Source of the DNA: Paraburkholderia largidicola
GTDB taxonomy: Bacteria; Pseudomonadota; Gammaproteobacteria; Burkholderiales; Burkholderiaceae
Assembly: GCF_013426895.1 (NCBI RefSeq)
Contig: NZ_AP023174.1
Location: 186,001-250,000 of the forward strand
DNA: 64,000 nt
Reading direction: 5' to 3'
Under the pieces are notes generated by a model. The model saw only the letters and a list, made by a program, of their open reading frames with translations, made no database searches and was not told the DNA's origin. Every line of letters begins with the position of its first letter. Position 1 is the first letter of the stretch. Of the stretch, positions 1-16,622 are shown piece after piece. A program made the position numbers and the translations under genes.

Positions 1-2932
1 CTTGATACTCGACCACCTTGCGGCCTTCCATGCGATGGAACGGCCGCTCGCCCTGCATTTGATACCAGTCTCCGATATCCGCGTCTTGCTCGACGATCTC
101 CTGATTCATGTCGAGGTAGCTTTTGAGCGTTTGCGCTGAAACACCCAGCCAAAGCGCGTGATCGTAACGACGCGAGACCTTGCCGGGCGCGAACTCGCCC
201 AGTGCCTGCTGAACAGGCAGATAGTGGTCGTCCGCTGCCTCGCCAGGCAGGGCGAGGCGCATTTCGGGCAGGCTCAGATCATCGAACAGATTGGCTGGAA
301 TGTAGTCGGGCAGGGGATGGCCCGCGCTGTAGTCGGGATGCGCCGAGTCCTTGCCCAGCCAGTTCATCTGCAGACGACGCATGGCAGTGGGCACCGCACC
401 GAGCAGTAAAGGGCGCGGATGGTTCCACAGCAGCACATTTAAGTCTTCGCGCGGGATCGCAAGGCGTTTCTGCAGCGAAGCAGCAAGGCGCTCGCCCGCA
501 TCCTGGCGGATTAGGACGTGTTTGAGAAGGTCGTGGAGACGCTTGTGAGCGAGACGCGTCTTCAACCAGTACCAGCCCGATGTTTCCAGGTTCTCGCCCC
601 GATGCCAGCCTTTCGGCGCGAGTTGCTTCGCCTTGATCCGTAATGCGTTGTGCTGCGCGGAGATTTTCGCGGGCTGAGTGCTTTTGAGGACCTCCCTGAG
701 CTCGCGAAGGTTATGCGGCTCCCAGTGTTTCAGCAGGGCTTCATCGGGCGGCCCTTTCATATCACGCCAGACGTAGATTCCGAGCGGGTCCGTGTGCGTC
801 ATATCGCCGAGCTCATCGAGCAGCGCATAGACCGACTGCATGCGTTGCACGTAGCGATTCGAAAGCGGTAACTGACGCGCCGGCAGCTCGGGATCGAAAA
901 GCGTATCGTAGGCCTGATATGCGAGACGGTCCCGGCCGTAGTCGGTCAGCACGATCATCGTCCACGGGCGCATGTGACGCGTGCGGCCCGCCCGTCCCTT
1001 GCGCTGCAGGAACGAGGCAATGTCGCGCGGCGCTTTATGTTGCACGACCACGCCGACGGCCGGATCGTCGAAGCCGACCTCAAGTGCAGCGGTAGCCACC
1101 ACGACTTCGCTGGCAGCGCTGACGCCGGAGTCGAGTGCCGTCGTGCGCGCAATTTCGAGCCGCGTTTCTAGCTTGTGACCGATATTCTCTGGCACACGCC
1201 AATCCTGGCCGCCATCGTAGCGGCGGTTCTGCTCGAGGCTTGAACGCAGCCGGGCAAGACCGCCCTCGGGATAACGCGATGTATTCGGGTGGCCAGAGAA
1301 ATGGCGGCCTTCCGCATCCAGAAGGTTGCGGAACAGGCGGTTGGCTGCATCCAGTTGATCTGTGAAGGCGAACGCGCGCCATCCGAAGAACGGGTTGCTG
1401 GTCTTGTCGAATCGATTGCGCGGGTCGAGCAGACGCGCTGAGAGCATCAGCGTCTGGATGGTTGTTGACAGAAGCGCGGCCTGAGACACCGGATCGCCGC
1501 GAAGAGCGAGCAGATACTCCGCGCCTTCATCGATGATGTCATTCTCCAGCGGCTTGATCTCCTGGACCACGGAATCATCCAGCCCCGTGAGACTGGCGAA
1601 AAAGCGCCGGCCTTCAGAGATGGTCGCGGAGAGGCCGACGAAACTCGAGCGTCTGCCGCTCGCGCTCCACCATCGGCGCATCAGATACGCGACCTGTGCG
1701 CCGTAGGTGCCGGAGTACAGATGCACCTCGTCCATGAGCACGAGGCTAGGCGCTTCGAGCGCCTTCGGACCGATGCCGAAGAGATGACGCAACTGCGGGT
1801 TGGATAAGTGGCGGTTGAGCATCTCCACCGACGTGAACAGCACATCGGGCGGCTCTTTTGCCATGGCTTCACGCGTAAATGCAAGCCGGTCCGATTCGAC
1901 ACAATGTCCGCACGACTTGCAGACGAGCCGGTCACGTGCCAGTTCCTTGTCTTCGGCGCGGACGACCATCTCTCCGCCGCAACCAGGCTTGGGGCAGGTG
2001 AAGAACGGGCAGATGGATTCGCGTCCATTGGATCGCCAGCCGCTCTGCTTGAGCGCGCTATGACGGGTTCCGGGCGTTTCGCCGTACAGTACGCCGACTC
2101 GCAGTGGTGCGCCGCCGCGGCTCGAGATCCAGTCATCGAACTTGCCGCACTGTTCGTAGACCTCGGCTAGTTGATCCTTGAGCAACTCGTTACGTGGATA
2201 CAGCGCGAGGACCCGAACCGACGACTTTGGCGACTCCACCCGCTGCCGGGCGATCCACGCGAGCGCCGGCAGATAGAAGGCGAGCGTCTTGCCGCTACCG
2301 GTGCCCGCCGAGACTAGAGTGCCCGCTCGCACGCGATGGTGCAGGCCATCCAGAATGCGCGCGGCGGCATCGACTTGAAAGCGCGACATGCCTGCATTTG
2401 GCGGCATCTGGTCGAGCCAGTGCGCGACGGCCGAACGCAACAGGGGATCGGTCACGGCCGTGTCGATGACGCTCATCACCGCATCGCGCCGCTGATCGCG
2501 TTTTGGGTAACGGCGGGCGCGGCGCAGGAAGCGGTAGTCCGCGACCAGCGTCGGTGCTGAGGTCCATTGAGTCGGCCCCGCGTGTTGCGGAAACATCTGG
2601 CGCAGCCGCGCGATAAGGCGTACGCCTTCGGCCATACGCGTGCGCCAGCGCGGGCTATGGTCACCCGAGCCGGTATGCGAATGCGGTATTTCGAATATCA
2701 TGCGGAGCGCGACGAGCTGGTCCCGCAAGTCACGCGCGGTGGCGATATTGCAAGCCACGTCGTAACGCAGTTCGGAGTTCCGTTTATCGTTGAGGACACG
2801 GTTCAGTGCCTCGTACACTTCATCATCCCCGAGCGCATTGTCGACCAGCCCCCAGACGAGCGCACGCGCCTCGATCTGCTCCAGTTCGTCGAGTGCGCGT
2901 TCTGCCAACGTGAGATCGGGAGTCAGCGCCAT
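1..2932 (-). CDS. dpdJ: DpdJ-like DEVH helicase (3' end beyond window)
   Basis: This superfamily 2 helicase is open from the ATG at 2932 to base 1, at least 977 residues, and it has no stop in the window. I translated it by hand. Walker A reads AGTGSGKT near residue 210, the Walker B box is DEVH near residue 400, followed by an SAT motif, and motif VI is QRKGRAGR near residue 644. Between motifs I and II there is a cysteine cluster, with a CPKPGC-type pair and a later CKSCGHC, which looks like a zinc ribbon. The start overlaps the dpdI stop by 10 bases, and it is the last of six coupled genes. DpdJ is the DEAD/DEAH helicase of the Dpd cluster and acts with DpdE-I and K to restrict DNA lacking 7-deazaguanine modification. 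The name rests on gene order and domains; a generic defence helicase is the alternative. Confidence 0.72.
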   Translation of the reverse strand, partial: MALTPDLTLAERALDELEQIEARALVWGLVDNALGDDEVYEALNRVLNDKRNSELRYDVACNIATARDLRDQLVALRMIFEIPHSHTGSGDHSPRWRTRMAEGVRLIARLRQMFPQHAGPTQWTSAPTLVADYRFLRRARRYPKRDQRRDAVMSVIDTAVTDPLLRSAVAHWLDQMPPNAGMSRFQVDAAARILDGLHHRVRAGTLVSAGTGSGKTLAFYLPALAWIARQRVESPKSSVRVLALYPRNELLKDQLAEVYEQCGKFDDWISSRGGAPLRVGVLYGETPGTRHSALKQSGWRSNGRESICPFFTCPKPGCGGEMVVRAEDKELARDRLVCKSCGHCVESDRLAFTREAMAKEPPDVLFTSVEMLNRHLSNPQLRHLFGIGPKALEAPSLVLMDEVHLYSGTYGAQVAYLMRRWWSASGRRSSFVGLSATISEGRRFFASLTGLDDSVVQEIKPLENDIIDEGAEYLLALRGDPVSQAALLSTTIQTLMLSARLLDPRNRFDKTSNPFFGWRAFAFTDQLDAANRLFRNLLDAEGRHFSGHPNTSRYPEGGLARLRSSLEQNRRYDGGQDWRVPENIGHKLETRLEIARTTALDSGVSAASEVVVATAALEVGFDDPAVGVVVQHKAPRDIASFLQRKGRAGRTRHMRPWTMIVLTDYGRDRLAYQAYDTLFDPELPARQLPLSNRYVQRMQSVYALLDELGDMTHTDPLGIYVWRDMKGPPDEALLKHWEPHNLRELREVLKSTQPAKISAQHNALRIKAKQLAPKGWHRGENLETSGWYWLKTRLAHKRLHDLLKHVLIRQDAGERLAASLQKRLAIPREDLNVLLWNHPRPLLLGAVPTAMRRLQMNWLGKDSAHPDYSAGHPLPDYIPANLFDDLSLPEMRLALPGEAADDHYLPVQQALGEFAPGKVSRRYDHALWLGVSAQTLKSYLDMNQEIVEQDADIGDWYQMQGERPFHRMEGRKVVEYQ

Positions 2933-3669
2933 GTGCCCACCGTGCGGGTACGGATGACGAAGCGAGAGGTGTCGTCGTATTGTCGGAGCCAGATGAGAAC
3001 TTCCTCGGTGAGGAGATCGAGCGCGGCGCCGTCTGCCTCCATTGCTTTGAAGAACAATTTGACGGACTGAGGCGTAGGCGTCAGCGTCGAGACAATCTTG
3101 CGTAATTCCTCGACGTGTTGGCGCAGCGCGTCCGCCGATCGGGTATCGGGAGGCATGGCAGCGCTCTTGAGCGAAGCGTACAGAGTGTATACCTCGCGAT
3201 ATCGGGCGAGTGCCTGCTTGTTGCCGGGAGTCTCCGGTTCGCGTGCAAGCAGCGCCGAGGAGGCTTCCGGTTCACCGAGATCACGGATCAACGCGCGCCA
3301 GCTTGCGCGGATAGCATCGCTGCTCAGGCTGTTGGCTTTGTCGGCCTGGGCCAGTAGTCGTATCCAGAACTCATCGCGTGACAATGCATCGACGCCGTCG
3401 CTTTTGCTGAGCCGTTCGCGCGCTTCCGCGCATAGAGCTCGCGTTGCCTCGTCGGCGCTTGCAAGCTCGGCCAGTTTGGATGCGGGCGGCGCAAGGTAGC
3501 CGGACTTCACGTGCAGTTCAGCGCGCTTTTCCTTGCGGCGGGACCATTCGGCCGAACGGTTCTGAATGGCCGACAAGTGAGAACGTAGCTGATTGGTACG
3601 GATGACTTGATCGAGTCCGGTTCGTGTCAGTTGAGCCTGTTCGAGCAGTGTTGGCATCATTCCTCCCAA
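2923..3669 (-). CDS. dpdI: DpdI-like protein of unknown function
   Basis: This 248-residue protein is rich in charged residues and predicted helix, with no catalytic motif I recognise and no signal peptide or membrane segment. It sits between the ATPase gene (overlap 13 bases at 3657-3669) and the DEVH helicase gene (overlap 10 bases at 2923-2932), so it is almost certainly co-translated with them. In the Dpd cluster the gene between dpdH and dpdJ is dpdI, a required partner of the restriction half whose biochemistry is not established. The assignment rests on position, size and neighbours rather than on any motif in the protein. Confidence 0.6.
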   Translation of the reverse strand: MGGMMPTLLEQAQLTRTGLDQVIRTNQLRSHLSAIQNRSAEWSRRKEKRAELHVKSGYLAPPASKLAELASADEATRALCAEARERLSKSDGVDALSRDEFWIRLLAQADKANSLSSDAIRASWRALIRDLGEPEASSALLAREPETPGNKQALARYREVYTLYASLKSAAMPPDTRSADALRQHVEELRKIVSTLTPTPQSVKLFFKAMEADGAALDLLTEEVLIWLRQYDDTSRFVIRTRTVGTWR

Positions 3670-6600
3670 GCCAGATCGCGGAAGAGGGCGTCATGCGCTT
3701 GGACGGCTGCCTGATCGTCGATCGAACTGGTCTGTGCTTTGATGGATTTGTCGAGGTCAATGAAGAAGCGCCGAAGCAGGGCGACTTCCTTGTAGATTGT
3801 GATGAGTTGCGGCAACGGGACGAGCGAGAGGGCCGCCAGTTTCTGATGCGTTTCCCAGTTCGCGTCGACGGGCTGTACTTTTCGCAGACGTTGGATCGCC
3901 TGATCGAGCGGCTCGGCCGCCAGACGATCCACCGCACCGCGCACTTCGCTCAGCGCAACGGAGCCAGTCGGCCAAGCGGGCGTCTGACTCGCCTGATCCA
4001 CTATCGCGCACATTTCGTCTCGCCATGCAACGCGTGCATGGTCTTCGGCGAAAGCCGCGGCAGCTTCCTGCAAATACAGGTCGACTGCCGTTGCGAGGTC
4101 TCGCACGATCATATCGACGGCTTGCGGCTCAAGTCGGTCAAGCATATCCTGCACTTCATTGCCAGCCTCGCCATTGCCGTTGAGTACGAACACCCAGCGA
4201 TCCTGAACTTCCTGCTTAATGGCCTGGCGGAAACGTTCGTTGTCGATGGCCAGCACCTTGCCGCCGTCACCCTGATAGCACGATAAGTAGCGGCGCAGGC
4301 GCTCCTGCAGTCGGGGGCGCGTGTCAGTCGCCAGTTTCCGGGTCGTCATCGCTCTGCGCACTTGTTGCGAAAGATCATCGACCGCGACGGCGATTTCCTT
4401 AGGTGCATCGGCAAGCAAGTCCCGCAGACTGGGGTTGTCTGCACGCGTGGTCACGCCGAGCAGCAAATCTTGTCGATGCAGTGTGAGCGCGGCAATCCCA
4501 GTGTCGCGGACGGCCTCATCGAGCACCATGTCGAGTATCTGATGTTCAAGCCGTTCCAGTAACGTGTTGGCTGCGGCATAGTCTGTTTCCCCGTTGGGAT
4601 AGGACCAGGATTTCCCATTGCTGTCCCAACGGTCGAGCGCTTTCAGGCCGGCGATGACAGTCGGCGAAATAGGCACGTCCGGCGGCGAAACTTCAATCTT
4701 CAAGCCCTTGGTGGGATTGCTGATCGTGCTGGCGGGCGGAAGCCAGAACCAGTCCCGGTTGACTTCCTGCCCGCTCAGGCAGTAGTCGCCGAAGTTCATC
4801 CGCTTGTTCAGAGCATCGGCGAGCAGGGTGCGCGTTCTGACCGGATACGTTCTGATCAGGCGCGTGTTCTGGTCCCACAACTCGAGCGCCTGTGCATATG
4901 GGCTTTCCGCCGGTTCGGGCGGTGGTGGCGGTGGCGGGGGTGGTGGCGCCACTTTGCCGCCTCGATGCGGATCTGGATCGACCGGTACGGGTTTGGGCGT
5001 CACGACCGCATCGAAAGGCCATGGCAGCGAGAACGCGTCGAACACGTTGCGCGTGGCTGGTGGGGCTGTATCGAGCGTGTTGGGATTACCACCCCAGTGA
5101 GCGAGCCCCGATGTCACTCGACCGAGTTGTTCGGGTGTCAGACCTTGATAAGTCAAACCGACGCTCACTGCGGACAGTAGCTTTGGATTGCGGAAGTTGG
5201 CGGGAGGAAAGCCGGCAGCCTCGAAGGTAAAGCGCTGACTGAGCGTGCTGCTCAATACCTCGTTGATGTAGGCGCGGGGATTGAATGTCCAGGCGTCGCC
5301 GATTTTGAGGACGCTCGCAGCTAGCGATTTGATCGCGGCGACATTGAACGGAAAGAGGCTATAACCTGATTCACTGCTCCCGAACGACGCCAATTTTTCC
5401 GACCAGGCCGCGTCCAGCGTGGGATCGAATTTGGGCACCCACGAATAGAGATCGTCCCGGTTGGGAGCCACCGTGTTGAAACGCCGCTTCAAATGAGCGA
5501 TACCGTGGCGGGCTGCGTTGAGGTAGCGTCCCGTGAACTCGACCAGCAGACGCGTGACGGTTTCCTCGTCGATGCCTTCGCTCGGCACGACCCATTGCTC
5601 CCGCGCGCGCGTCAGCACGGTCTGCCGGCCTGCAAGGAAACCATCCGTAACAGCCACTGCCGTGCGGATCGGGGCGCGCACGCGCACGCCCTTCTCGTCG
5701 CTCTCGGCGATCATGATGTCCAGCAAGGGTTGCTGAATGCCTGAGAGGGCCGCCAGATCCTCGATGAGCAGCACCAGTTCCTTGCCGTCCGCGAGCAATT
5801 CTCGTCGAATCTCGTCGACGACCTCCTGAATAGTGCGTTGATTCAGCGCTTCTGTGAATCGGAAAATGGTGCGTAGAGCCGAGTCCAGCACTTCCTGCAG
5901 CACTTCCGCGGCGATGCCGCGAGCGGCGCCGTTCGAACTGGCCAGGAACGCGAGCGCTTGGCCCACGGTCCGGCGCAGTTCCATGCTTGCGACGGCTGCA
6001 GGTGGTTCGAAGTCCGCGATCTGGAATTGCCGGCGCGCGGGGTCAGACGTGCCGCTGAGGCTTGCATCGACGATTCTCAACAAAACGTCCCGAAACCACT
6101 GATCGCGAATCTCGGGGTCACGGATCATATCGCGCACTCGGTTCGCAGCGACGATGCGAGGTCCGAGCGTTCGGTCGCCGCTCGCGCGAATTTGCTCCTC
6201 CACTTGCGCCGCGTAGGGGCCGAGTTCCTCGGCGAGCGCGGTCGCGAGAAGTTCGGCCGCGCGTGGCGGGTCGAGCGACTCCACCGCGCGACTCAGGTCC
6301 GCCCGCAGCGCGTCGTATCGTGCGCCGCTCAGCGGGGCGAGAATCCGTTCGACTACTTCGCGAAGACTCGCCGTCTTCGGAATCGGAACCACGACTAGAT
6401 CTTTGCGGCGCGGATGGCGATCGAGTTGCGCCCCGAGCCAGCGGATCATGTGCGATTTGCCGACGCCAGACGCGCCGGTAATCGCAATGATGACCGAGCT
6501 GCCGTCGTTGACGGGGCGCATGAGCGAGTCGAGCAGGTCGACTTCAGACGCATCCACTTCATTCCCGGCCTGAGCGGAGCGTCGCTTCAGCGTGATGGGC

Positions 6601-6704
6601 AAGTGTACTGCGAGCAACAGCGCCTGATCTACCGTTTCGGCTTCGGTGCGGAGACATTCCTCCACATGTTCACCGGTGGGCCAGAATTCGATCAAAGGGT
6701 TCAT
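3657..6704 (-). CDS. dpdH: DpdH-like P-loop ATPase
   Basis: This is a large cytoplasmic ATPase of 1015 residues. Walker A GASGVGKS is at residues 77-84, and a Walker B-like stretch ending LIED lies near residues 313-316, giving a STAND/AAA-type N-terminal half. A run of ten or more prolines near residues 585-596 (bases about 4919-4950) separates it from a long, mostly helical C-terminal half with no motif I know. The frame stays open upstream to 6935, but the ATG at 6704 is the start I choose: it overlaps the dpdG stop as ATGA, as elsewhere in this operon, and the upstream reading is arginine-rich shadow of dpdG. DpdH is the ATP-binding member of the Dpd restriction genes and probably powers or signals within the complex. 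Confidence 0.7.
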   Translation of the reverse strand: MNPLIEFWPTGEHVEECLRTEAETVDQALLLAVHLPITLKRRSAQAGNEVDASEVDLLDSLMRPVNDGSSVIIAITGASGVGKSHMIRWLGAQLDRHPRRKDLVVVPIPKTASLREVVERILAPLSGARYDALRADLSRAVESLDPPRAAELLATALAEELGPYAAQVEEQIRASGDRTLGPRIVAANRVRDMIRDPEIRDQWFRDVLLRIVDASLSGTSDPARRQFQIADFEPPAAVASMELRRTVGQALAFLASSNGAARGIAAEVLQEVLDSALRTIFRFTEALNQRTIQEVVDEIRRELLADGKELVLLIEDLAALSGIQQPLLDIMIAESDEKGVRVRAPIRTAVAVTDGFLAGRQTVLTRAREQWVVPSEGIDEETVTRLLVEFTGRYLNAARHGIAHLKRRFNTVAPNRDDLYSWVPKFDPTLDAAWSEKLASFGSSESGYSLFPFNVAAIKSLAASVLKIGDAWTFNPRAYINEVLSSTLSQRFTFEAAGFPPANFRNPKLLSAVSVGLTYQGLTPEQLGRVTSGLAHWGGNPNTLDTAPPATRNVFDAFSLPWPFDAVVTPKPVPVDPDPHRGGKVAPPPPPPPPPPEPAESPYAQALELWDQNTRLIRTYPVRTRTLLADALNKRMNFGDYCLSGQEVNRDWFWLPPASTISNPTKGLKIEVSPPDVPISPTVIAGLKALDRWDSNGKSWSYPNGETDYAAANTLLERLEHQILDMVLDEAVRDTGIAALTLHRQDLLLGVTTRADNPSLRDLLADAPKEIAVAVDDLSQQVRRAMTTRKLATDTRPRLQERLRRYLSCYQGDGGKVLAIDNERFRQAIKQEVQDRWVFVLNGNGEAGNEVQDMLDRLEPQAVDMIVRDLATAVDLYLQEAAAAFAEDHARVAWRDEMCAIVDQASQTPAWPTGSVALSEVRGAVDRLAAEPLDQAIQRLRKVQPVDANWETHQKLAALSLVPLPQLITIYKEVALLRRFFIDLDKSIKAQTSSIDDQAAVQAHDALFRDLAWEE

Positions 6705-7597
6705 CGGACGGCTCCTGCGCTGGGTCTTGCGATCCACTGAAAACTCATGTCGGCGCGCATGCCGTTCACACCGGTAAGAACGATAGAACTGCCGACGTCG
6801 GCGCGACGCTGCAACAGCAGGTCTCCTGATCCGCGCAAATTGAGCAAAGCCCTGGACAATGCAGTGCTGAGTTGACCCGCCTGTAACGGCGCGAGTGCGT
6901 TGCCGTCCACGGAGGAGAGGACTTCTTGCCTCCACATGCCACGGTCGAGTACGGGCAGGGCCTGCGCGAGTTTGTCGACAAACTGGGTCGCGTCGATGTC
7001 TTCGCCTTCTCCCAGGATCTTGGGCAAGACATCACGTATTGCGACGGTGGGATCGATGTCCGCAAACGGCTGCTGGCTGAAGCCGAGGAAGCGCGCCCAG
7101 TATTGCAAACCAGTGCGTCGAGTCGGGTTGCGGAACAGCAATCGCTCGGACTCTCCCATTTGCTGAACTTCCAGCGCCTCGAACTGGCTAAAGCCGGTTC
7201 GATACACGTCCTGAGCGAGCATCCATGCAAGGGAACGGGTGAGGTCCGCTGCGGCCGCGCCTTCGGACATCCAGAACTCCCCATTGTTTTCTGCAGCCAT
7301 GACGCGCGCACAGGCAGTCCGGCGCGTGAACGCAAGCAGGTCCTTTGCGCCGTCGCGGCGGCTGGCAGGACGCTCTGTTACGGTGATCGCACCGTCGACT
7401 TCCTGAAATAGTCCCAGCGCCGTCCAGCGCAACAGCGTGCCGCGCGCCAGTTTTCCAGCATCGGAAACCAGAGCGGGCGGCGCGACGGCATCGAGCAAGG
7501 CTTCGCGGGGAATTGGTTTGATCGCACGCAGGACCGTGGCGTGCAGCTGGACTAGGATGTTCGGCAGCCCGTCGTTGGTGAGATTCAGTAGGCTCAT
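6701..7597 (-). CDS. dpdG: DpdG-like protein
   Basis: This 298-residue cytoplasmic protein has no P-loop, nuclease or methylase motif that I can identify. It starts inside the dpdF stop (ATGA, 7594-7597) and ends inside the dpdH start (ATGA, 6701-6704), so three consecutive genes are coupled by four-base overlaps. In the Dpd cluster a protein of this size lies between the RecQ-like DpdF and the ATPase DpdH. The first 70 residues could form a winged-helix-like fold, but that is a guess from helix and strand spacing. The name is inferred from position. Confidence 0.62.
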   Translation of the reverse strand: MSLLNLTNDGLPNILVQLHATVLRAIKPIPREALLDAVAPPALVSDAGKLARGTLLRWTALGLFQEVDGAITVTERPASRRDGAKDLLAFTRRTACARVMAAENNGEFWMSEGAAAADLTRSLAWMLAQDVYRTGFSQFEALEVQQMGESERLLFRNPTRRTGLQYWARFLGFSQQPFADIDPTVAIRDVLPKILGEGEDIDATQFVDKLAQALPVLDRGMWRQEVLSSVDGNALAPLQAGQLSTALSRALLNLRGSGDLLLQRRADVGSSIVLTGVNGMRADMSFQWIARPSAGAVR

Positions 7598-10167
7598 AGG
7601 GTCAATGCCCGGATCAGGGACTGTTCATCGGTATGCGGAAGTACGCTTGACCATAGACGGTCGGGGCGATCCGGATCTCGAGCAGAATTGGGAAGAAGCA
7701 CGACAGTCATCGCACAGGGCGACGTTTTCAAAGCCAAACTTAGGGAGTGACCGATTGATTCGGAAGACAAAATGACGATCCGTACTTCATGTTCGGCGCC
7801 ATCCAGGCCGTCGGGCCGGGCTGGATCGAACAAGTCGATGAATGCATCGGAGCGCAGGCGTCGCAAGCGCGCCCGCATCGAGTTCAGCGCGACATCCTGC
7901 GTCTCACGCTCGAGCGCGATCGTGTGTGGCTTCAAAGTGCTGACGAGCGCGTCGAGGACGTTTGTGGTCGACTGTTGCAGAACACGAGAAACGTCATCCA
8001 CTACGATGAATGACAGATTGCCATACACGCGAGGGACGCCCCGCAATGCGTTCGGAACATCTGGTCTCCGCGAAAAGATGTCCAGTCGAGCAACGAACGG
8101 TGACGGTGCCACCGGCTTGCGCGGTCGCTCGGACCAGTGATGGTTGCAACCTCCGCAATAAGGACGAACCGGAGCGAAAACCGTATGCAGCGCGACCCGA
8201 TAGAGTTCACTCAGGGCGTCTTCTACCTTCCGTTCATTGCGGGCGATCGACAGCATCAACTCCATGCCCTTGTTGTTGGCGGACCGCGCGTCACTTCGAG
8301 CGCGCTGCATTTGCTGATCGAAAGTCGCTCTCGCCAGATGGCCTGCATTGGAGAGGCGTACCGCTGCATACGTAACGGTCGTTTCGGATTCTTCGAGGTC
8401 ACTATCAGGTTTGCCGAATCTGTCCGGCGGAACCGTGGATAGTGCTGTTATATCGATTAAGCCAGCGCACGCCATGAGATTGAGCGTGCGGAGATTCCAT
8501 TCGAGATTGGTTGAACCTTGAACATTTAGCGCCGGACGGAGCCGGCGCAGATCCACCCAAGTCTGGTCGCCTTCGGCGTCACGGGCAACCGGACGCTCGA
8601 TCATCATGCTCCAGCGCTCGAAGGCGATTTCGTTGCCAACGTAGCGTGGCGCTGCGAGCCCTTGCGCCTGCTGGATATCCTCCTGTGTGTAGAGCAGCAG
8701 ACTGGCGGACGCGATGCCGTCACGCCCGCCGCGCCCGACCTCCTGATAGAAGCGGTCCAGCGATTCCGGCAGCGTCGCGTGGACGATGGTGCGGACATCA
8801 CTCTTGTCGACGCCGACGCCGAACGCGGAAGTGGCGATCATGCCGTCCAACTCATCTCGTTTCCATTGCGCGAGCAGCGTTTTTCGCGCGCTTGCACCCG
8901 TTTCGCCAGTGAACTGCGCGATGCGTTCGAAGCCATCTTCGAGGAGTATTCCTAGCCACTGCTCGGCCTCGTCGGGCCGTGTGACATAGAGGATGAACGG
9001 GCGCGGCGCTAATCTGAGTGCCTCGACGACACGTTGCTTCCGTTCGGCGAGCGTTGCACAGAAATGAGTTGCGTAACGCGGCTCTGGCCGGAGGTAGACG
9101 GCAGAAATGAGCCTGGTCTTCTCAGGCGGTCCGAACTGGCGTTGCAGCACTTCGATAGTGTGCGAGGTGAGCGTCGCAGACGCGAGCACGACTCGGATCG
9201 AGCGCGGCGCCATGCTGCGCAGGCGTGAAATTAGCGCGGGAAGAAGTTGAAACGCTGGCCGGAAGCCACTGCCCCAAGTAACGACGAGATGTGCTTCATC
9301 CACGACGACGTGAGTAAGACGCCCCGCTTTCGCACAGTCTTCTAGCAAGCCTCGCAGCGAGCCGGTTGCTGCCTCGGGCGAGGTGAACAGCACACGCTGA
9401 GTGCCATTATTCATCGCACGAAACACTGCGGTGCGCTCGTCCGGGCTGAGGCCGCCGTGATACGCGAGCGGCTTCTCCTGCCAGTTGACGTCTTCTCTGC
9501 GGAAGAACTCGGCCATGCGCTCGCCCTGATCGATTGCCAGCGCGACGGTGGGCACAATCGCCAGCGTGACATGGCCTTCACCGTTCAAAAGTGGCGGCAA
9601 TTGGGCCAGCAATGATTTGCCGCTCCCCGTCGGCAGCGCGGCGATTAGCGTGATGTCGGAAGGCATGTGAAGGAGGCTGCGCACGGCCTCGCGCTGACCA
9701 GCGCCGGTGAAGAACGGCAATCCCAGCGCGTCGCCGACGACGGGCTCCGCTGCGATCCATTTGCGGTCGAGCGCCTGAGTTTCGACTAGCACGTCGTCGA
9801 ACAGGTCGCTCTGCTTGCCCAACCAGCTTAGCCGGGGACTTTGTGCGCGAATCTCGAAACGGCGCTCGAAAGCGATCACCTGGAACTGAGCTGCTTCCCA
9901 CGCGTGGCGATCCGGCCATATCGGTCCACTTGGCACGCTCAGCCATTGCGCCCCGCCGCGGTGGGTATGCAGCAGTAACCACTGCCGCAGTAAGGCCGCC
10001 AATTCGACGTGCGAGCGGTGCGCATGACCATCGACATATCGCAGCAGTACTTGTCGGAGGCGCTCGAGCAAACCTGTGGCCTGATGCGTTGTCAGAATCT
10101 GATCGGCCCGCCCCCAATCCGCTAGACACTCCTTGAGTTCGGCGTCACCGAAGAAATCGCGCTTCAT
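7594..10167 (-). CDS. dpdF: DpdF-like RecQ-family helicase
   Basis: This ATP-dependent DNA helicase has 857 residues. Residues 175-185 contain the Walker A LPTGSGKS, DEAH is at 290-293, followed by ASATL (motif III), and the motif V/VI region reads FGVGVDKSDV and then QEVGRGGRDG, which is typical of RecQ enzymes. A short Cys cluster (CGGC) near residue 670 could bind metal. The classical RQC and HRDC domains are not obvious; instead there is a 170-residue N-terminal extension and a long unknown C-terminus. The ATG at 10,167 overlaps the dpdE stop by four bases. In Dpd clusters DpdF is the RecQ-like helicase of the restriction arm, presumably unwinding or translocating unmodified DNA. Confidence 0.78.
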   Translation of the reverse strand: MKRDFFGDAELKECLADWGRADQILTTHQATGLLERLRQVLLRYVDGHAHRSHVELAALLRQWLLLHTHRGGAQWLSVPSGPIWPDRHAWEAAQFQVIAFERRFEIRAQSPRLSWLGKQSDLFDDVLVETQALDRKWIAAEPVVGDALGLPFFTGAGQREAVRSLLHMPSDITLIAALPTGSGKSLLAQLPPLLNGEGHVTLAIVPTVALAIDQGERMAEFFRREDVNWQEKPLAYHGGLSPDERTAVFRAMNNGTQRVLFTSPEAATGSLRGLLEDCAKAGRLTHVVVDEAHLVVTWGSGFRPAFQLLPALISRLRSMAPRSIRVVLASATLTSHTIEVLQRQFGPPEKTRLISAVYLRPEPRYATHFCATLAERKQRVVEALRLAPRPFILYVTRPDEAEQWLGILLEDGFERIAQFTGETGASARKTLLAQWKRDELDGMIATSAFGVGVDKSDVRTIVHATLPESLDRFYQEVGRGGRDGIASASLLLYTQEDIQQAQGLAAPRYVGNEIAFERWSMMIERPVARDAEGDQTWVDLRRLRPALNVQGSTNLEWNLRTLNLMACAGLIDITALSTVPPDRFGKPDSDLEESETTVTYAAVRLSNAGHLARATFDQQMQRARSDARSANNKGMELMLSIARNERKVEDALSELYRVALHTVFAPVRPYCGGCNHHWSERPRKPVAPSPFVARLDIFSRRPDVPNALRGVPRVYGNLSFIVVDDVSRVLQQSTTNVLDALVSTLKPHTIALERETQDVALNSMRARLRRLRSDAFIDLFDPARPDGLDGAEHEVRIVILSSESIGHSLSLALKTSPCAMTVVLLPNSARDPDRPDRLWSSVLPHTDEQSLIRALTL

Positions 10168-13100
10168 TGCTCGAACGGGTCTTCAGAGGCCAGGAAAACC
10201 ACACCCGCAACATCGAGATCGATATCGGGTTCGGCAAGCGAATTGCGGATCGCGGCGCAAAGCGCGTCGTCGTTGGAGCGCTCTTCGAGTTCGCATCGCC
10301 GCTGCGCGCCCGTTAGCCGCGCCAAGCGTGATTCGGTCTGGGCGTGACGTAGCCGCTCTTCGCGGTCCAGCGCGGTCAGCGCCTGTCTGACGTGCGCACG
10401 GCACGCGTCGGACTGAAGCGCGGCGGCTTCGGCCGTCTGCCGCGCTTCTGCGCACAGGGCCGGCCAGTCTCGCAGCCAGCTGGTTTGGATCGGCGACGGA
10501 AGGTCGCGCCACCGGCGAGGATTCAGGTTGAAGTCGCGGCGCGTGCCTTGCCAGAAATCGGTATACGACGCTTCCATCAGTTCCGACGGGGTCGATACGA
10601 CCGCGCCAGAACCATCCACCCAGATGCGAAGGAACATCGGCGCGAGCAGCGCCTGCGACTTGCGGGTGAGTGACTGTTCAAGAATCGACTGTCCGTCGGC
10701 ACCGCGTCCGTCCAGCTTCGCGACGAGTGCGGCCGGCCGGATGATGAAATCGAACCGGAAGAACAGATCGGCGCCGCTCGGATCGTGCACCTCGTATTCA
10801 CGGTCGACGCGCCACATGGCGAAGGCGCGTCCGCGGTCGTCCTGCTCGCAGAACGCCTCGAGCGATGCCACCAGCGGATCACCCACGCGCAGTACGCGCA
10901 CGCCCTGCGACCGCGCAGCGCGCGTCAGCGCATTCTGCCGGCGAAACACGTAGCGATAGGTCAGCGGCGAGCGCGAGCGATCGCTCGGCGCATCGACGTC
11001 GATGCTCTGCAGGAACGTGCGCAGATAGCCGCCCATCGGGATGAGTGTTCTGGGCACACCATGTTCCATCACATAGGCTAGCCTGAATGCCTCGTCCGAG
11101 TCTTGGTTGATGGGGCGCGAGCCGTCGTAGCGAACTTGAAATTTGAGGGCTTCGCCAGCAAACCGGATCAGCGCGGCGCGCCACTCACGCCACGACTGAT
11201 CACATTCGTCGACTTGTTCCATGGCGTCCAATTCTTGCTCACCGAGTGCATCCAGCCCGTCCTGATGATCGATCTGCTTGCGTTCACGTTCGACCAAGCC
11301 CATTGGCCCGCTGAGCGCGGTCGCGTGTTCACGAATAGCCGGTGTACCTTGCGCGAACCACTCTTCCTCTAGCGTCTGCAAGGCTGATTCGATCAGGTAC
11401 TGCAGGCTCGCAACCGAGCGGTTGAAAACCTGCCAGCCAGTATCAAGCGTGTCGATCCACGCACCTTCATCGGGGTTTGATTCGTCATGCAGCGCATAGG
11501 ACACGATGGGATCGCCTTTGCCGAAACGGTCAAGCCGTCCGAGACGTTGCTCGCAGCGGTTCGGCGAACCCGGCATGTCGAAGTGAACGGCGATCTTTTT
11601 GCCTCCATGGAGATTTACGCCTTCTTCCGCGCGCGCGTCGCACACGAGCACGCGAACCTTGTCGGTCGTCGACAGGAATTTCTGCCAAGGCAGCGGGGTG
11701 TCTTCGTCCTCGCAGTTCGCACGAACTTCGTGACGAACGACCTGGGCGCCAAAGGAGCGCTGCAAGTGTTGAGCGGCGCGGTCGGCATCGGTGCGATCGC
11801 TGCAAAAGACCACCACCTGCGCATTGGGTGTCGCCAATATGCCTTCGAGCGTGGCAGTGAGGGTATCTAGGCGCTCCTGACCGTCGCGCATGCGTTCCGC
11901 GCTGCCGTCCAATGCGTCGGCAATCTCGAGCGCCTCGTCGTCGCGGATGTTGTGTTGCTCGAGCAGCTTGCGCACCGAGGTACGGTCGCGCGAATTGAGC
12001 ACATGACCGAGCACGGCAGCTCGCAGCGTTGCGGGCAGCGTGTCCAAGCCGTTCAGATGCAACCGCAACTCCTCCAGTTGACGTCTCCAGCGCTCAGCCC
12101 CGGCGCTCCTGAACGGGACTCGCTTGAGGCCAGCACGTCTAGGCGTGGCCCATTGCAGCGACTTGCGGCGATTCCGCAGAATACGTCGATGCAAACGATA
12201 ACTCTCCACCAGATGCGTTTTTAGATCCGCAAGTGCGTTGACGTATGCCTCGTCTTCTTCATCTGGAAAAGCGTTAAGAATCGCGCGCAACGCATCGACT
12301 TTTTCCATCAGCGTGATGTCTTCACCATACGCCTCTTGAAGGCGGTCCAACTCGCCAGTGAGACTCCAAAGATTCTCAGGAGTCAGCATTGCGACTACCT
12401 CCGCGACGACCTGGCGCGTTGCTATTCGTCGATTGAATCCATCGAGATCGTCGAGCGGGAATGCCACCGGATCGAGCAGATGCAGTACGCGTAGGAAGCC
12501 TTCAGGGTCCGACAGTACGGGCGTTGCTGACAGCAGCAATAACCGGGGAATGCGGTGCGCGTGGGCCTGCAGTCGCCGGTACAGCGTGATCTCGTGCTCG
12601 CTGCTAAAACGTGAAAGGTGATGCGCCTCGTCGACTACGAGCAGTCCGGCGTTAGCGAGTTCGTCTTCAACATCCGCGACATCTTCGTGGCTGACAACAT
12701 GAAGAAAGTCATCGAGGTCGTTGCCGAGGCCGAACCTCGTGGTTAGTTCCTCTCGCCATTGCGCGACGAGAGCGGGAGGCGCAAGAACGACGGCATGTGA
12801 ACTTCCCGGCGGTATGTCAAGAAAGAATTGGCGGATGATCACGCCGGCTTCGATGGTCTTGCCCAAGCCGACTTCGTCCGCGAGCAGGTAGCGCTGCACC
12901 GGATCGGTCAATACGCGCCGGACGACCTCAAATTGATAATCGACCAGTTCGATAGAAGACGAGAGAGCGGCTGTGATGCCCGAAGCCGCGCTGTACTGAA
13001 GCGCGACCTGACGCGTGAAGGCGCTGCGTGCATCAGCGAGAAATGGTGTTTCAGTGGCTTCGCTGGTGAGCAGTGGCAGAGGGTCGCGCAGGGGGCGGTT

Positions 13101-13505
13101 CCAACGGACCTGAAGATCTGCGGCCTCGACATTGGCCGATTCACCATTTGGGAATTGCACGAAAATGGCAGCGCCATTTCCGTCGGTCACGCGTCCCACC
13201 TGCCAGCGGCCAGTCGATTGCCGCCTAAATACGCGTGTCTGGGTAGGCAGGCAAATCGGCTTGATGTTCGTCAGGGATGATTCAACAACCTGCGGTTCAG
13301 CCCCGGGTGCATCGAAATATTGAACACGGGCGATTCCGTTCGTTGCACCGGCGAACTTTCCGATTCCCCAGGCAGAGTACGGCACGGCGGTGATCTGGAC
13401 GAATGCGCCGACTTCAGGTCGAGCGGCCGGCATCACCGCGCTCCCGCCAAAATAGACCCGGATTCGCTCGATGTCGGGCTTTTCCGATACACGTCGGAAT
13501 AGCAT
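10164..13505 (-). CDS. dpdE: DpdE-like SNF2/RapA-type helicase
   Basis: This SNF2-family translocase of 1113 residues is the first gene of the six-gene run. Residues 35-130 look like small beta-barrel repeats, as in RapA/HepA. The ATPase core begins at about 190, with GLGKT at 213-217, DEAH at 292-295, then LSATP, and motif VI as EQRLGRLDRFG in the second RecA lobe. The C-terminus is long and helical. The ATG at 13,505 has a GAGGG sequence about 17 bases upstream; an internal ATG at residue 25 is also possible, because similarity to the family appears to begin just after it. The gene overlaps dpdF by ATGA. The name is supported by the full order E-F-G-H-I-J. Confidence 0.78.
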   Translation of the reverse strand: MLFRRVSEKPDIERIRVYFGGSAVMPAARPEVGAFVQITAVPYSAWGIGKFAGATNGIARVQYFDAPGAEPQVVESSLTNIKPICLPTQTRVFRRQSTGRWQVGRVTDGNGAAIFVQFPNGESANVEAADLQVRWNRPLRDPLPLLTSEATETPFLADARSAFTRQVALQYSAASGITAALSSSIELVDYQFEVVRRVLTDPVQRYLLADEVGLGKTIEAGVIIRQFFLDIPPGSSHAVVLAPPALVAQWREELTTRFGLGNDLDDFLHVVSHEDVADVEDELANAGLLVVDEAHHLSRFSSEHEITLYRRLQAHAHRIPRLLLLSATPVLSDPEGFLRVLHLLDPVAFPLDDLDGFNRRIATRQVVAEVVAMLTPENLWSLTGELDRLQEAYGEDITLMEKVDALRAILNAFPDEEDEAYVNALADLKTHLVESYRLHRRILRNRRKSLQWATPRRAGLKRVPFRSAGAERWRRQLEELRLHLNGLDTLPATLRAAVLGHVLNSRDRTSVRKLLEQHNIRDDEALEIADALDGSAERMRDGQERLDTLTATLEGILATPNAQVVVFCSDRTDADRAAQHLQRSFGAQVVRHEVRANCEDEDTPLPWQKFLSTTDKVRVLVCDARAEEGVNLHGGKKIAVHFDMPGSPNRCEQRLGRLDRFGKGDPIVSYALHDESNPDEGAWIDTLDTGWQVFNRSVASLQYLIESALQTLEEEWFAQGTPAIREHATALSGPMGLVERERKQIDHQDGLDALGEQELDAMEQVDECDQSWREWRAALIRFAGEALKFQVRYDGSRPINQDSDEAFRLAYVMEHGVPRTLIPMGGYLRTFLQSIDVDAPSDRSRSPLTYRYVFRRQNALTRAARSQGVRVLRVGDPLVASLEAFCEQDDRGRAFAMWRVDREYEVHDPSGADLFFRFDFIIRPAALVAKLDGRGADGQSILEQSLTRKSQALLAPMFLRIWVDGSGAVVSTPSELMEASYTDFWQGTRRDFNLNPRRWRDLPSPIQTSWLRDWPALCAEARQTAEAAALQSDACRAHVRQALTALDREERLRHAQTESRLARLTGAQRRCELEERSNDDALCAAIRNSLAEPDIDLDVAGVVFLASEDPFEQ

Positions 13506-14108: not shown

Positions 14109-14657
14109 TTAAGCGATACGAACCTTGCGCAACAACACCCAAGACCAGATAGCGCCCCCTGTAACCTTCGCCAGAAATTGCAGTCCTGCGATTGTCGGGA
14201 ATATCGTGCCAAATGCGATCAGCGGGAATACGACAGAGTCAATCGCTGCGCTGGCTACGTTTGCGCCATTCGCACGCGTGAGAACGGGATAGCGTCGCAC
14301 CGCTTGGAACACGACCGCGCTCGTAATGGCCGCCGCGCTAAATGCGACGAGAGACGCCAAGGATATAACGCCTGAAGCCGGATTGAGCATATAGCTGACG
14401 ACACCGGCGCCGGTGATCAGGCAGAACATACGAGCCCACAGCGAGTGCCCATGCCAGTCCAAGTGAAGACGATCTCGGATAGCAAGGTCGAGGCCGATCA
14501 ACAAGAAGGCGTTGATCGGAGTGGACGCCGGGCCGAAATGCGCGACGCTCAGGTTTGCTGCGGCAACCGCTGCAATGTAGATCAAAATGTACACGGAAAA
14601 TGACAAGGAGAAGTTGGATGTGCAATCGATGCCTTCGATAACTAGCGAAGGTGACAT
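14109..14657 (-). CDS. VUT (DUF165/YhhQ) family transporter, candidate preQ0 importer
   Basis: This 182-residue membrane protein has about six hydrophobic segments (roughly 20-40, 46-60, 75-95, 97-120, 135-155 and 157-178). The segment NGANVASAAIDSVVF near 129-143 carries the N...D-S pattern that marks the VUT/YhhQ family. E. coli YhhQ imports preQ0/preQ1, the 7-deazaguanine precursors, and short versions like this one occur in phages. It lies 14 bases after the AlpA-like gene and precedes the Dpd genes, whose system consumes preQ0. A role in precursor supply for DNA modification is therefore a natural inference. The first 20 residues are weakly supported, and translation could begin closer to the first membrane segment. 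Confidence 0.75.
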   Translation of the reverse strand: MSPSLVIEGIDCTSNFSLSFSVYILIYIAAVAAANLSVAHFGPASTPINAFLLIGLDLAIRDRLHLDWHGHSLWARMFCLITGAGVVSYMLNPASGVISLASLVAFSAAAITSAVVFQAVRRYPVLTRANGANVASAAIDSVVFPLIAFGTIFPTIAGLQFLAKVTGGAIWSWVLLRKVRIA

Positions 14658-14671
14658 GGACCGTTTGCGTT

Positions 14672-15247
14672 CTATGGTTTTTTATCTTCTGCTCGATAGT
14701 TTGCTGGCGATTTTAGGAAGGACTCGATGTCGGCAACTCGCCAGCCAATCGATCTTGGCCCGATCTTCAACTGGGGAGGGAAGGTCCCCTCTTTGACCCG
14801 CTGATAGATCGTAGAGCGAGATAGCCCAGTTTCCCTCTCGACCTCTACGCGCCTCATGATTGCGGCTGGTGGCCGCGGATCCGCTGGCTTCATCGGGGTG
14901 ATCGCCGCTTGCGGTTCGGGACCTTGAGGACCGTTGTGTTCTTCCTCTACTTGTCGGACGGATTTTGCTCCGAACTCTATCAGCATTTTTGCGAGTTCGT
15001 CACCCACTGCGCGCCACCGTGCGAATGCCTCGCAGTAAGAGACGACGGAACGTGCATCGACGCTGCTGAGCACTCCAGCATCGGAGAGTTGTTGGGCTAC
15101 CGTAGGCCAGTGCGCGATTGCTGCGGGAGAAAGCTGCCACAACACATCTGTATCAGCACCGTGTTTAGGACGGTTTCGCCGATTTGCCTCATTCGATTGA
15201 TCCGATGCACTAGCTTCTCCGGTTTGGCCTGATTTCCGCGGGCGCAT
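14672..15247 (-). CDS. P27-like small-terminase segment joined to an AlpA-like DNA-binding domain
   Basis: This 191-residue protein has two unlike parts. Residues about 40-95 resemble the P27-type phage small terminase core (W-P-x-V followed by L-x-x-x-D and a YCEAFARW helix). Residues about 130-185 are an AlpA/MerR-like winged helix, with the RSTIYQRVKEGTFPPQLKIG recognition segment followed by W-R-x-x-D-I-E-S-F-L. The linker carries a Pro/Ala-rich stretch. Its ribosome site AGGAG lies inside the end of the integrase gene, one base away, so it is co-translated with the integrase. AlpA proteins regulate excision in P4-like elements; the terminase part has no obvious use here and may have been recruited for DNA binding. 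Confidence 0.7.
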   Translation of the reverse strand: MRPRKSGQTGEASASDQSNEANRRNRPKHGADTDVLWQLSPAAIAHWPTVAQQLSDAGVLSSVDARSVVSYCEAFARWRAVGDELAKMLIEFGAKSVRQVEEEHNGPQGPEPQAAITPMKPADPRPPAAIMRRVEVERETGLSRSTIYQRVKEGTFPPQLKIGPRSIGWRVADIESFLKSPANYRAEDKKP

Positions 15248-15248
15248 A

Positions 15249-16622
15249 TCACGCTCCTTTCAGTTGCCTGTGAAACTTGATCCCTGCTTGATTGAGCACC
15301 CAGGCTTCGATCTTGTCATGCCACATCCGCAGCAGGTCGAGTGGCCGACGTCGATAGTGCTTCTCGGCAAGTGCCGACGGTTTGTGTCCTTGGATCTGGG
15401 CGACGACGCCAACGGGAACCTCGACCCACTCTGACAGGGTTCCGAACGATCGACGTAGGCCGTGCAGCGAGACATGCGGCAAACCTGTCGGCGCCAATGC
15501 TCGGTTATGCGCATGACGTGGTTCGGCGATCTTTCCATCCGCCGCCGTCTTGCTGGCAAAGACCCACTCGGACGGTTCCCATTCTTCTCGTCTTTCGGCA
15601 AGTCGCTTCGTTTGACGTTTGTTAGGTGGGGTCTCGTTCAGTCGCCGAAGATTCAACAATAGGCTCGCCAAATACGGGGTGAGCGGTATCGTTCGTCCAC
15701 CAGTACCCTCGACTTTGTCGTTCATAGTGAGACTGCGCCAGCGGAAGTCCACGTCTTCCCACCGCAATGCAGCTAGCTCTTCCCGCCGGGCGCCCGTGAT
15801 CAGCAGGCCTTGGAGATATGCGCTGATGACTGGATTCTCGATGCCGCGCACCGCGCTAAACCAAGCCGATAACTGCTCCCGTTGCAAGCAGTCGTCTTTC
15901 GCGGCGCTTCGCGGAAGGATGCCTTTGACCTTTGGAGATGTGTAAGCGTCGTGAGGAATGATGCCCGCATATGCCTCGTCACTGTCACACCATCGAATGA
16001 ACGCTTTGAACAGACCGAAAGCATGGCCAGCATTTGTCGGTCCCCGGGGTATCTCAGCCTCGAGCCACTCCGACATGGACGTCGCCGTGATCTCGGTCAA
16101 CCTCCGCGGCATGAGCGGCGCCAATGGCCCACGCACCTTCTCTTTGCCGCCGCGTTTGGCAATACCGCCCCCAGGCGAGGAGAGGTTGATGTGATCAATG
16201 ATGTATCTCTCGGACCGCGGCTTTTTCGTTTTGGGGGAGATCTTCGTTCGCAGATGCTCCAGGTAATGCTCCCACGCTTCGCCGACAGTCACGTCCTGAC
16301 GGCGCTTCGCTGCCTGACGGGCTTCGTGTTCGGCCTTCTGCTCAGCCTCTCGCTCGCGCGGATCAACTCCGTCGTCGATAATCGTCTGGAGACTGCGAGC
16401 GCGCTCTTGAGCCTTGTCGATCGTCCAGCTCCTCGGATCGCCGATCGTCATCCGGACCGTCGAGCCATGGATCTTCCCTTGGTAGATATAAGCCTTGGCT
16501 CCACTAGGCGTGGCTCGCAAGCCGAGGCCGGGGGTCTTGCTATCCCAAAGAAACGACTGCGACTTACCCTCTTCGCAGCGATGCGCCTCTACACGAGCCG
16601 CAGTGAAGTTGACCTTAGCCAC
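15249..16622 (-). CDS. int: P4-type tyrosine integrase
   Basis: This site-specific recombinase has 457 residues. The N-terminal arm-binding domain has the LGLRATPSGAKAYIYQG signature of the DUF4102/P4 integrase group, and a SAM-like core-binding domain follows. The catalytic domain shows GARREEL with the first Arg, HGLRRSF (His-x-x-Arg), a GHK, and the Tyr of KHYRRRP as nucleophile. The start is GTG at 16,622, preceded by AAGGGGG at good spacing. The gene sits about 180 bases from the tRNA-like fragment and points into the island. It is intact and probably able to excise the element, with the adjoining AlpA-like protein as the likely directionality factor. Confidence 0.93.
   Translation of the reverse strand: MAKVNFTAARVEAHRCEEGKSQSFLWDSKTPGLGLRATPSGAKAYIYQGKIHGSTVRMTIGDPRSWTIDKAQERARSLQTIIDDGVDPREREAEQKAEHEARQAAKRRQDVTVGEAWEHYLEHLRTKISPKTKKPRSERYIIDHINLSSPGGGIAKRGGKEKVRGPLAPLMPRRLTEITATSMSEWLEAEIPRGPTNAGHAFGLFKAFIRWCDSDEAYAGIIPHDAYTSPKVKGILPRSAAKDDCLQREQLSAWFSAVRGIENPVISAYLQGLLITGARREELAALRWEDVDFRWRSLTMNDKVEGTGGRTIPLTPYLASLLLNLRRLNETPPNKRQTKRLAERREEWEPSEWVFASKTAADGKIAEPRHAHNRALAPTGLPHVSLHGLRRSFGTLSEWVEVPVGVVAQIQGHKPSALAEKHYRRRPLDLLRMWHDKIEAWVLNQAGIKFHRQLKGA

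Follow-up and report, generated by a model that had tools for sequence, protein, structure and literature searches.

A Dpd 7-deazaguanine system on a tRNA-Ala island of Paraburkholderia largidicola, with modification and restriction halves that appear to be exchanged between bacteria

Introduction

Does the arm of defence genes at the left edge of one stretch of Paraburkholderia largidicola DNA stand alone, or is it one half of a complete system? The stretch (hereafter the window) is 64,000 nucleotides long and covers C1:186001-250000, where C1 is contig NZ_AP023174.1 of a 9.47-Mb genome and a window base is the C1 position minus 186000. Genes at its left edge resemble those of Dpd, a known bacterial defence in which guanines of the cell's own DNA are swapped for a modified base. 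We find that they very probably belong to a complete restriction-modification system of the Dpd type, which places 7-deazaguanine in DNA, and that it sits on a 58.7-kb integrative island in the tRNA-Ala(CGC) gene of this Burkholderiaceae chromosome; sequence comparison suggests that the modification and restriction halves of such systems have been exchanged between bacteria. Gene content and order, open frames, motifs, island boundaries, the duplication of dpdB and the evidence for exchange of halves come from the present analysis; the chemistry and the restriction activity would be those of the known Dpd system. Proteins were scored against PADLOC Dpd models, NCBIfam profiles with their curated cut-offs and Pfam, and tRNA genes were located with ARAGORN. 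Labels beginning with L denote loci retrieved for comparison, and those beginning with G denote genomes in a set of 398 Burkholderiaceae genomes.

A complete Dpd locus

The restriction operon runs on the minus strand from dpdE to dpdD:

10164..13505, minus strand: dpdE, SNF2-like helicase of 1,113 amino acids, first gene of the operon (PADLOC DpdE, E 1.4e-299)
7594..10167, minus strand: dpdF, RecQ-like helicase of 857 amino acids (PADLOC DpdF, E 5e-241)
6701..7597, minus strand: dpdG, 298 amino acids (PADLOC DpdG, E 3.7e-39)
3657..6704, minus strand: dpdH, P-loop ATPase of 1,015 amino acids (PADLOC, E=0; NCBIfam NF041065, 760.7 bits, cut-off 450)
2923..3669, minus strand: divergent dpdI, 248 amino acids from a TTG (NCBIfam NF041066, 60 bits, E 3e-16)
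2..2932, minus strand: dpdJ, first 977 of 1,591 codons (PADLOC DpdJ, E=0 over the whole length)
C1:183636-184160, minus strand: dpdK (PADLOC; NCBIfam cut-off passed)
C1:181412-183646, minus strand: dpdD (PADLOC; NCBIfam cut-off passed)

An initial annotation of the window had described six minus-strand genes overlapping by 4-13 bases, and the overlaps are indeed 4, 4, 4, 4 (or 13) and 10 bases, the fourth being 13 if dpdI starts at its TTG and 4 if it starts at an alternative ATG at 3660. For dpdH, the list of open reading frames puts the start too far upstream, at a GTG at 6935; the match to the PADLOC profile sets in at an ATG, residue 78. What had been called a complete dpdE-J half thus has its six genes, but it is not complete within view: dpdJ runs over the window edge to its end at C1:184157 (1,843 bases beyond base 1 on the left), where it is followed by dpdK and dpdD, the three overlapping genes continuing the operon.

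Gene order and domains fit Dpd, as had been proposed. DpdE, F, G, H and J match their PADLOC models, the dpdI product matches an NCBIfam profile below its cut-off, and DpdD, E, F, G, H, J and K are assigned to Dpd by PADLOC, with NCBIfam cut-offs also passed by D, H and K (the NCBIfam test took in DpdD, H, K and I, whereas DpdE, F, G and J were judged by PADLOC). The labels SNF2, RecQ and P-loop for DpdE, DpdF and DpdH come from the PADLOC family and visible motifs rather than from a Pfam scan; DpdJ has Pfam DEAD and Helicase_C domains above cut-off. DpdK carries HTKSLLTD, a phospholipase-D-type motif, with Pfam PLDc_2 above cut-off, and is the clearest nuclease candidate among the operon products, although one of DpdD, E, F, G and H, which were judged by profiles other than Pfam, may have a nuclease domain as well. 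There is next to no likelihood that these helicases belong instead to DISARM, BREX or Druantia: secondary PADLOC matches to BrxH, DrmD, PsyrT and DruE do arise via the helicase domains, but at scores about 6 to 20 times below the Dpd scores, and the non-helicase proteins DpdD, G, H and K best fit Dpd models. Membership of those systems was rejected on profile scores and gene set.

The left flank was searched for dpdA, dpdB, dpdC, dpdD and dpdK, and all are present, which bears out the first of two alternatives in the initial annotation, that modification genes lie left of base 1. The modification operon consists of:

C1:175737-176738, plus strand: dpdC (PADLOC, E 3.5e-114)
C1:176746-177867, plus strand: dpdB1 (NCBIfam DpdB above its cut-off of 300)
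C1:177864-179159, plus strand: dpdA (PADLOC, E 7e-167; NCBIfam NF041059, 549 bits, cut-off 200)
within C1:179012-180232, plus strand: dpdB2 (NCBIfam DpdB above its cut-off of 300)
C1:180219-180950, plus strand: queC (Pfam)
C1:180980-181399, plus strand: queD (Pfam)

This dpdC-dpdB1-dpdA-dpdB2-queC-queD array (C1:175737-181399) lies 4.6-10.3 kb left of base 1, with dpdA 6.8 kb left of it, and ends 12 bases past the end of dpdD on the opposite strand, so that the two halves are convergent. DpdA aligns almost end to end with the solved DNA-guanine transglycosylase 7ui4 (E 1.4e-89), retains the GDCGAF, DST and CxCxxC stretches, and is 99% identical to DpdA of Paraburkholderia sp. BL9I2N2; elsewhere in the genome, tRNA-guanine transglycosylase is matched only by a full tgt at C1:3064162. 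The two DpdB copies score 471.8 and 381.4 bits. Guanine-plus-cytosine content at third codon positions differs little between the modification operon (0.58-0.70) and the restriction operon (0.66-0.73).

The second alternative, a restriction arm without a modification half, drew its appeal from the window itself, which holds no modification gene. It is ruled out by the left-flank dpdA, two dpdB, dpdC, queC and queD, convergent with dpdD, and is unsupported across the 398 Burkholderiaceae genomes, so that we give it practically no credence. Among the matches listed, full-length DpdA (>500 bits) occurs in 11 genomes, and all nine genomes with DpdH above 60 bits are among them; the two with DpdA and no DpdH are G034 and G317, the latter having one TGA inside the matched dpdA stretch (in L021, taken from that contig, the dpdA frame is open). 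The remaining DpdA matches, again among those listed, reach at most 31.7 bits in the middle of the profile and are presumably ordinary tgt, and G369, with a DpdH match of 20 bits, has no dpd gene within its 15-kb neighbourhood. At C11:190334-190714 of G270, a 119-residue dpdA remnant is followed by a piece of dpdB2, apparently from a lost Dpd system.

Supply of preQ0 may draw on several genes. The host has queC, queE and queD at C1:42.6-44.5 kb, the island adds its own queC and queD, and one further gene lies in the window:

14109..14657, minus strand: YhhQ/VUT-family protein (Pfam PF02592, 34.5 bits, cut-off 27.2)

The YhhQ/VUT family has a role in preQ0/preQ1 uptake. This protein has no NCBIfam match; VUT genes occur in further Dpd loci, including that of Agrobacterium vitis, and the Dpd locus of G072 has a YhhQ-like copy, 82% identical over 0.8 of the length, between its two halves. 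We note that the window gene stands between dpdE and the AlpA/integrase genes (see below), not by queC as in A. vitis and several rhizobial loci. By analogy with the known system, preQ0 would be supplied by host queC-queE-queD and by island queC and queD, with the YhhQ-like protein perhaps adding preQ0 uptake; DpdA with two DpdB ATPases would exchange guanine in DNA for preQ0; DpdC would turn preQ0 in DNA into ADG; and the products of dpdE-F-G-H-I-J-K-D would form a helicase/ATPase assembly attacking unmarked DNA.

Three points weigh against a standard, complete Dpd system. First, DpdC has no NCBIfam match at 0.001. Second, DpdI scores 60 bits on NF041066 against a cut-off of 150 and matches no PADLOC model; its position fits dpdI, and over 62 residues it weakly resembles (E 2e-4) the Enterobacter protein encoded at that position. 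Third, the classic Dpd system has one DpdB and this one has two.

Apparent exchange of the two halves

In six other genomes, identity to the window proteins was compared between the modification half (DpdB1, DpdA, DpdB2, QueC) and the restriction half (DpdD, K, J, I, H, G, F, E):

G155: modification 84-89%, restriction 49-87%
G380: modification 70-75%, restriction 54-80%
G146: modification 85-90%, restriction 21-43% (DpdI not matched, several proteins partly covered)
G277: modification 82-87%, restriction 29-41%
G072: modification 83-87%, restriction 26-39%
G366: modification 77-81%, restriction 25-39%

DpdC and QueD, which are not counted in these modification ranges, are more variable in the six genomes (44-77% and 68-91%). 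Relatives rank in inverse order by the two halves, and differences in rate cannot by themselves account for this. In tree tests, grouping the six DpdA-close genomes into one clade is rejected by the DpdE data (log-likelihood 133 lower, p-AU 3e-54), and grouping the four DpdE-close genomes is rejected only weakly by the DpdA data (19 lower, p 0.03). The groups were chosen after the identities had been seen, the DpdA tree gives its own group poor support (38/35) and G146 has a long branch, and the evidence for exchange is therefore strong on one side only. With that reservation, the modification and restriction halves appear to have been exchanged between bacteria.

Two DpdB paralogues

We considered whether the double dpdB is an oddity of this genome and rejected this, as it is the rule among loci found with this DpdA: dpdA has a DpdB-type gene as neighbour both before and after it in 26 of 27 loci, which were retrieved from a collection of genome contigs by similarity to the window DpdA (44-99% identity) and are not a sample of Dpd overall. 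In the remaining locus, L030 from Methylobacterium hispanicum, dpdC-dpdA has no recognised DpdB on either side within 21 kb. In L012, from a Scytonema bin (a metagenome-assembled genome), dpdB1 is split over two frames (5054-6249); its DpdA is 75% identical to that of the window, which suggests transfer or a mis-binned contig.

DpdB1 and DpdB2 of this island are 31% identical and both keep DGQQR. In a DpdB tree of 55 rows (three short pieces dropped; two rows are third copies from L018 and L033), the B1 and B2 sequences are separated by a branch with support 95/90, present in 94% of bootstrap trees, to be read with caution given several long branches. DpdB may act as a heteromer. The dpdB pair is already annotated in A. 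vitis and Bradyrhizobium records; open-licence PubMed Central literature yielded no discussion of it, which is weak evidence of absence.

Comparison with other Dpd loci

Salmonella Montevideo has a Dpd system of the Salmonella/Enterobacter type. A locus of this type on Enterobacter cloacae plasmid NZ_CP086409.1 is like the island in having dpdA-dpdB behind a gene at the dpdC position, the dpdE-F-G-H-(dpdI position)-J-K-D order and the convergent orientation, its genes at the dpdC and dpdI positions being annotated as hypothetical. It differs in having one dpdB where the island has two; queC and queD are part of the island operon, matched proteins are 22-38% identical, and DpdI is unmatched. 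Burkholderiaceae and Rhizobiales loci (among L007-L033, and A. vitis CP146243.1) share the island's dpdC-dpdB-dpdA-dpdB core and vary in the restriction half and in three additional gene pairs, one of which, a DGQHR protein with an HNH nuclease, is treated below.

The second of these pairs, a protein of about 300-396 amino acids with a HAD-type hydrolase, follows the que genes or precedes dpdD at 13 Dpd loci (L007, L009, L021, L022, L024, L025, L028, L029, L031, L032, L033, L044, L072) and is missing from the window; the 300-396-residue protein had no Pfam match in the two tested, and the set possibly provides a further tailoring or supply step. The third is a UvrD/REP-type helicase with a PD-(D/E)XK nuclease beside dpdC in four loci (L021:3855-7430, L033:4142-7809, L072:13690-17287 and L025:3500-7121), and no DpdD-K arm was seen with it in L021, L033 and L072, L025 being the exception. 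In L022 (16874-20796), and also in L024 and L031, a DndB-type gene (ADGQHR) and a gene for a 770-residue protein without a PADLOC match lie beside the Dpd modification genes; only the DndB-type gene was seen in L032. In the genomes behind L022, L024 and L031, DpdH is represented only by a distant match (88-100 bits).

The island and its cargo

The integrase-bearing island proposed in the initial annotation is confirmed, its integrase and AlpA-type regulator by Pfam, and can now be delimited:

14672..15247, minus strand: AlpA-type regulator (PF05930, E 1e-15)
15249..16622, minus strand: tyrosine integrase (PF00589 and PF13356 above cut-off)
16799..16841, plus strand: right attachment repeat, a 43-base copy of the 3' portion of tRNA-Ala(CGC), identical at 42 of 43 positions to C1:144120-144162

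The intact tRNA-Ala(CGC) gene is at C1:144094-144169 (ARAGORN). Integrase, attachment repeats and tRNA target are thus all present, and the repeat beside the integrase together with the tRNA target gives an island of about 58.7 kb, at about C1:144.1-202.84 kb. G384, of the same genus, shares one stretch of 31.4 kb (96.9% DNA identity) that opens at C1:175659, immediately ahead of dpdC, and extends through the right flank, and its Dpd proteins are 95-100% identical to those of the window; in the roughly 20 kb retrieved left of its dpdC the sole other match longer than 200 bases is 1.8 kb at 76%. The dpdC-to-integrase stretch is therefore the stable part of the island and the left part variable cargo, comprising here Leo genes, a DUF262-type gene pair, an IS66 transposase and a DpdB-like + HNH pair, and in G384 different Leo-type genes and a helicase gene. 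The left part is a mixed defence island. Specifically, two adjoining GmrSD/DUF262-type genes and LeoB/LeoA dynamin-like genes lie at C1:150627-154630 and C1:166135-169750; of the former two, one has PF03235 above cut-off and both have PADLOC Orf5/HEC-06 matches.

Such mobility raises the thought that the Dpd system no longer works and is kept as island cargo, which we regard as improbable. Decay of Dpd does seem to happen, since in a Trinickia relative (L017/G034) dpdC is matched only over a short length, the retrieved stretch shows no clear queC and the genome gives no DpdH hit. Here, however, all 14 dpd/que frames are open, with no stop codon in any of them, and the dpdC-to-integrase stretch with its proteins is kept in G384 at the identities given above. 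The island thus very probably carries a complete Dpd system.

A DpdB-like and HNH gene pair

Left of dpdC, in the variable part, lie two genes:

C1:172866-174389: DpdB-like protein of 507 amino acids with VDGQQR (PADLOC DpdB, E 1e-41)
C1:172103-172858: HNH nuclease of 251 amino acids, its ATG 7 bases past the stop of the 507-residue gene (PF01844, 40.4 bits, cut-off 21.4)

The 507-residue protein is closest to DpdB (NCBIfam DpdB, 133 bits, cut-off 300) and carries the DGQHR domain TIGR03187 (75.9 bits, cut-off 58.85). Like DndI/SspE/GmrSD-type effectors (DUF262 with DGQQR, and HNH), the pair has a DGQ(H/Q)R nucleoside triphosphatase (NTPase) and an HNH nuclease and stands beside a DNA-modification system. 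Unlike DndI, it consists of two separate genes, with an NTPase of DpdB/DGQHR type that has no Pfam match at 0.01 and hence no DUF262 (PF03235) N-terminal domain; the pair is therefore not placed in the GmrSD/SspE/DndI family. GmrS and GmrD can be separate too (PMC4619093), and DndI, with DUF262 DGQQR and HNH in one protein, is a phosphorothioation-sensing effector that accompanies dndFGH in 72 strains and occurs without them in 61 genomes (PMC11662687). In many cases a Dnd modification module is accompanied by nucleases different from DndFGH (PMC10853773), and the GmrSD-like two-gene system GrwAB acts against 7-deazaguanine phages and can recognise 7-deazaguanine DNA (PMC12137116).

A motif scan found HNH genes at seven further Dpd loci (L008, L011, L012, L021, L023, L033, L044), and in six of these the HNH frame overlaps or almost touches a third DGQHR frame, neither B1 nor B2; an IS5 transposase gene intervenes in L044. 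With Bradyrhizobium plasmid L072, which was added by a looser motif and, having been chosen for its DGQHR match, is not independent, HNH occurs with DGQHR at 8 of 33 Dpd loci (window excluded), directly adjacent in 7, against none of 40 non-Dpd DGQHR loci, where a single HNH was found, non-adjacent. The Fisher p of 0.001 is a guide only, as the loci are not independent, flank lengths are unequal and the motif is crude. These control loci, 25 viral and 15 genomic, came from the DGQHR profile, and a DGQ(H/Q)R frame was recognised 31 times by motif. An alignment of ten HNH proteins shows C..C, H, P, G, N and C..C in every sequence and a second G in no fewer than nine; the Pfam HNH score is above cut-off in the window and L021 and below it in L033. 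Both proteins of the pair group alike, L008 with L033, L011 with L012 and L023 with L044 being closest.

Comparable pairs are not limited to Dpd. On P. aeruginosa plasmid NZ_CP133095.1 (L069, 45378-51136), an HNH + DGQHR pair is convergent with adjoining dndE-D-C-B, and dndFGH are not among the genes tabulated, incompletely, for the surrounding 15 kb. A plasmid search with one DGQHR query returned 18 records, namely this plasmid, A. vitis, Bradyrhizobium and 15 Providencia plasmids, and the one Providencia plasmid examined has no HNH motif, dpd or dnd gene within about 5 kb. Two of the 15 genomic DGQHR loci without HNH adjoin dndC and dndD matches (L080, L083). Such DGQHR proteins therefore also occur away from modification loci and without an HNH partner. 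Dnd-associated DGQHR proteins already have an NCBIfam entry (TIGR04172, by name); we found no paper on DGQHR + HNH with Dpd in open-licence PubMed Central literature, which is weak evidence of absence.

Is the pair part of this Dpd system? That it is integral to it is weakened by G384, the nearest relative searched, where homology starts at C1:175659, between the pair and dpdC, and where the stretch retrieved left of dpdC showed nothing related to the pair. Nor is absence of DpdH special to pair-bearing genomes: the DpdH profile has no match in the whole genomes behind L011, L012, L021 and L033, where the pair is present, but also none behind L016, L017, L020, L030 and L032, where no pair was seen. 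This makes 9 of 13 genomes, of unstated completeness, without a DpdH match, and the plasmids of L069 and L072 have none either. Moreover, the left part of the island carries Leo and DUF262 genes as well, and in the 398 genomes the 507-residue protein matched only itself and DpdB1/B2 of the 11 Dpd genomes. We consider it a little better than an even chance that the pair is unrelated neighbouring cargo without a part in Dpd function. The tight recurrence of such pairs at other Dpd loci and the closeness of the window's protein to DpdB argue the other way, and make the pair a candidate second restriction module on the evidence of gene neighbourhood only. It stands beside a DpdD/K/J arm in the window, L008, L023 and L044. 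By analogy with DndI it would spare marked DNA and nick unmarked DNA, its variable position in the island urging caution; if host DNA bears the mark, the pair cannot simply attack 7-deazaguanine DNA as GrwAB does.

Implications

What is new here is the modularity and the DGQHR + HNH lead, rather than a lone restriction arm. Taken furthest, and with more doubt than confidence on our part, Dpd may be less a fixed system than a modification core (dpdC-dpdB1-dpdA-dpdB2) with restriction modules that are traded, namely the dpdE-K arm, a pair of UvrD helicase and PD-(D/E)XK nuclease, and a DndI/SspE-like split cassette of DGQHR NTPase and HNH that reads 7-deazaguanine and nicks unmarked DNA. The same kind of cassette would serve dnd, two modules would lie side by side here, and some genomes would rely on cassettes alone. 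If the pair is a Dpd effector, it would offer a two-gene cassette as a study system far smaller than the eight-gene dpdD-K arm. The natural exchange of halves suggests that the restriction arm reads the mark itself, without need of its native modification enzymes, so that halves could be mixed and matched in tests.

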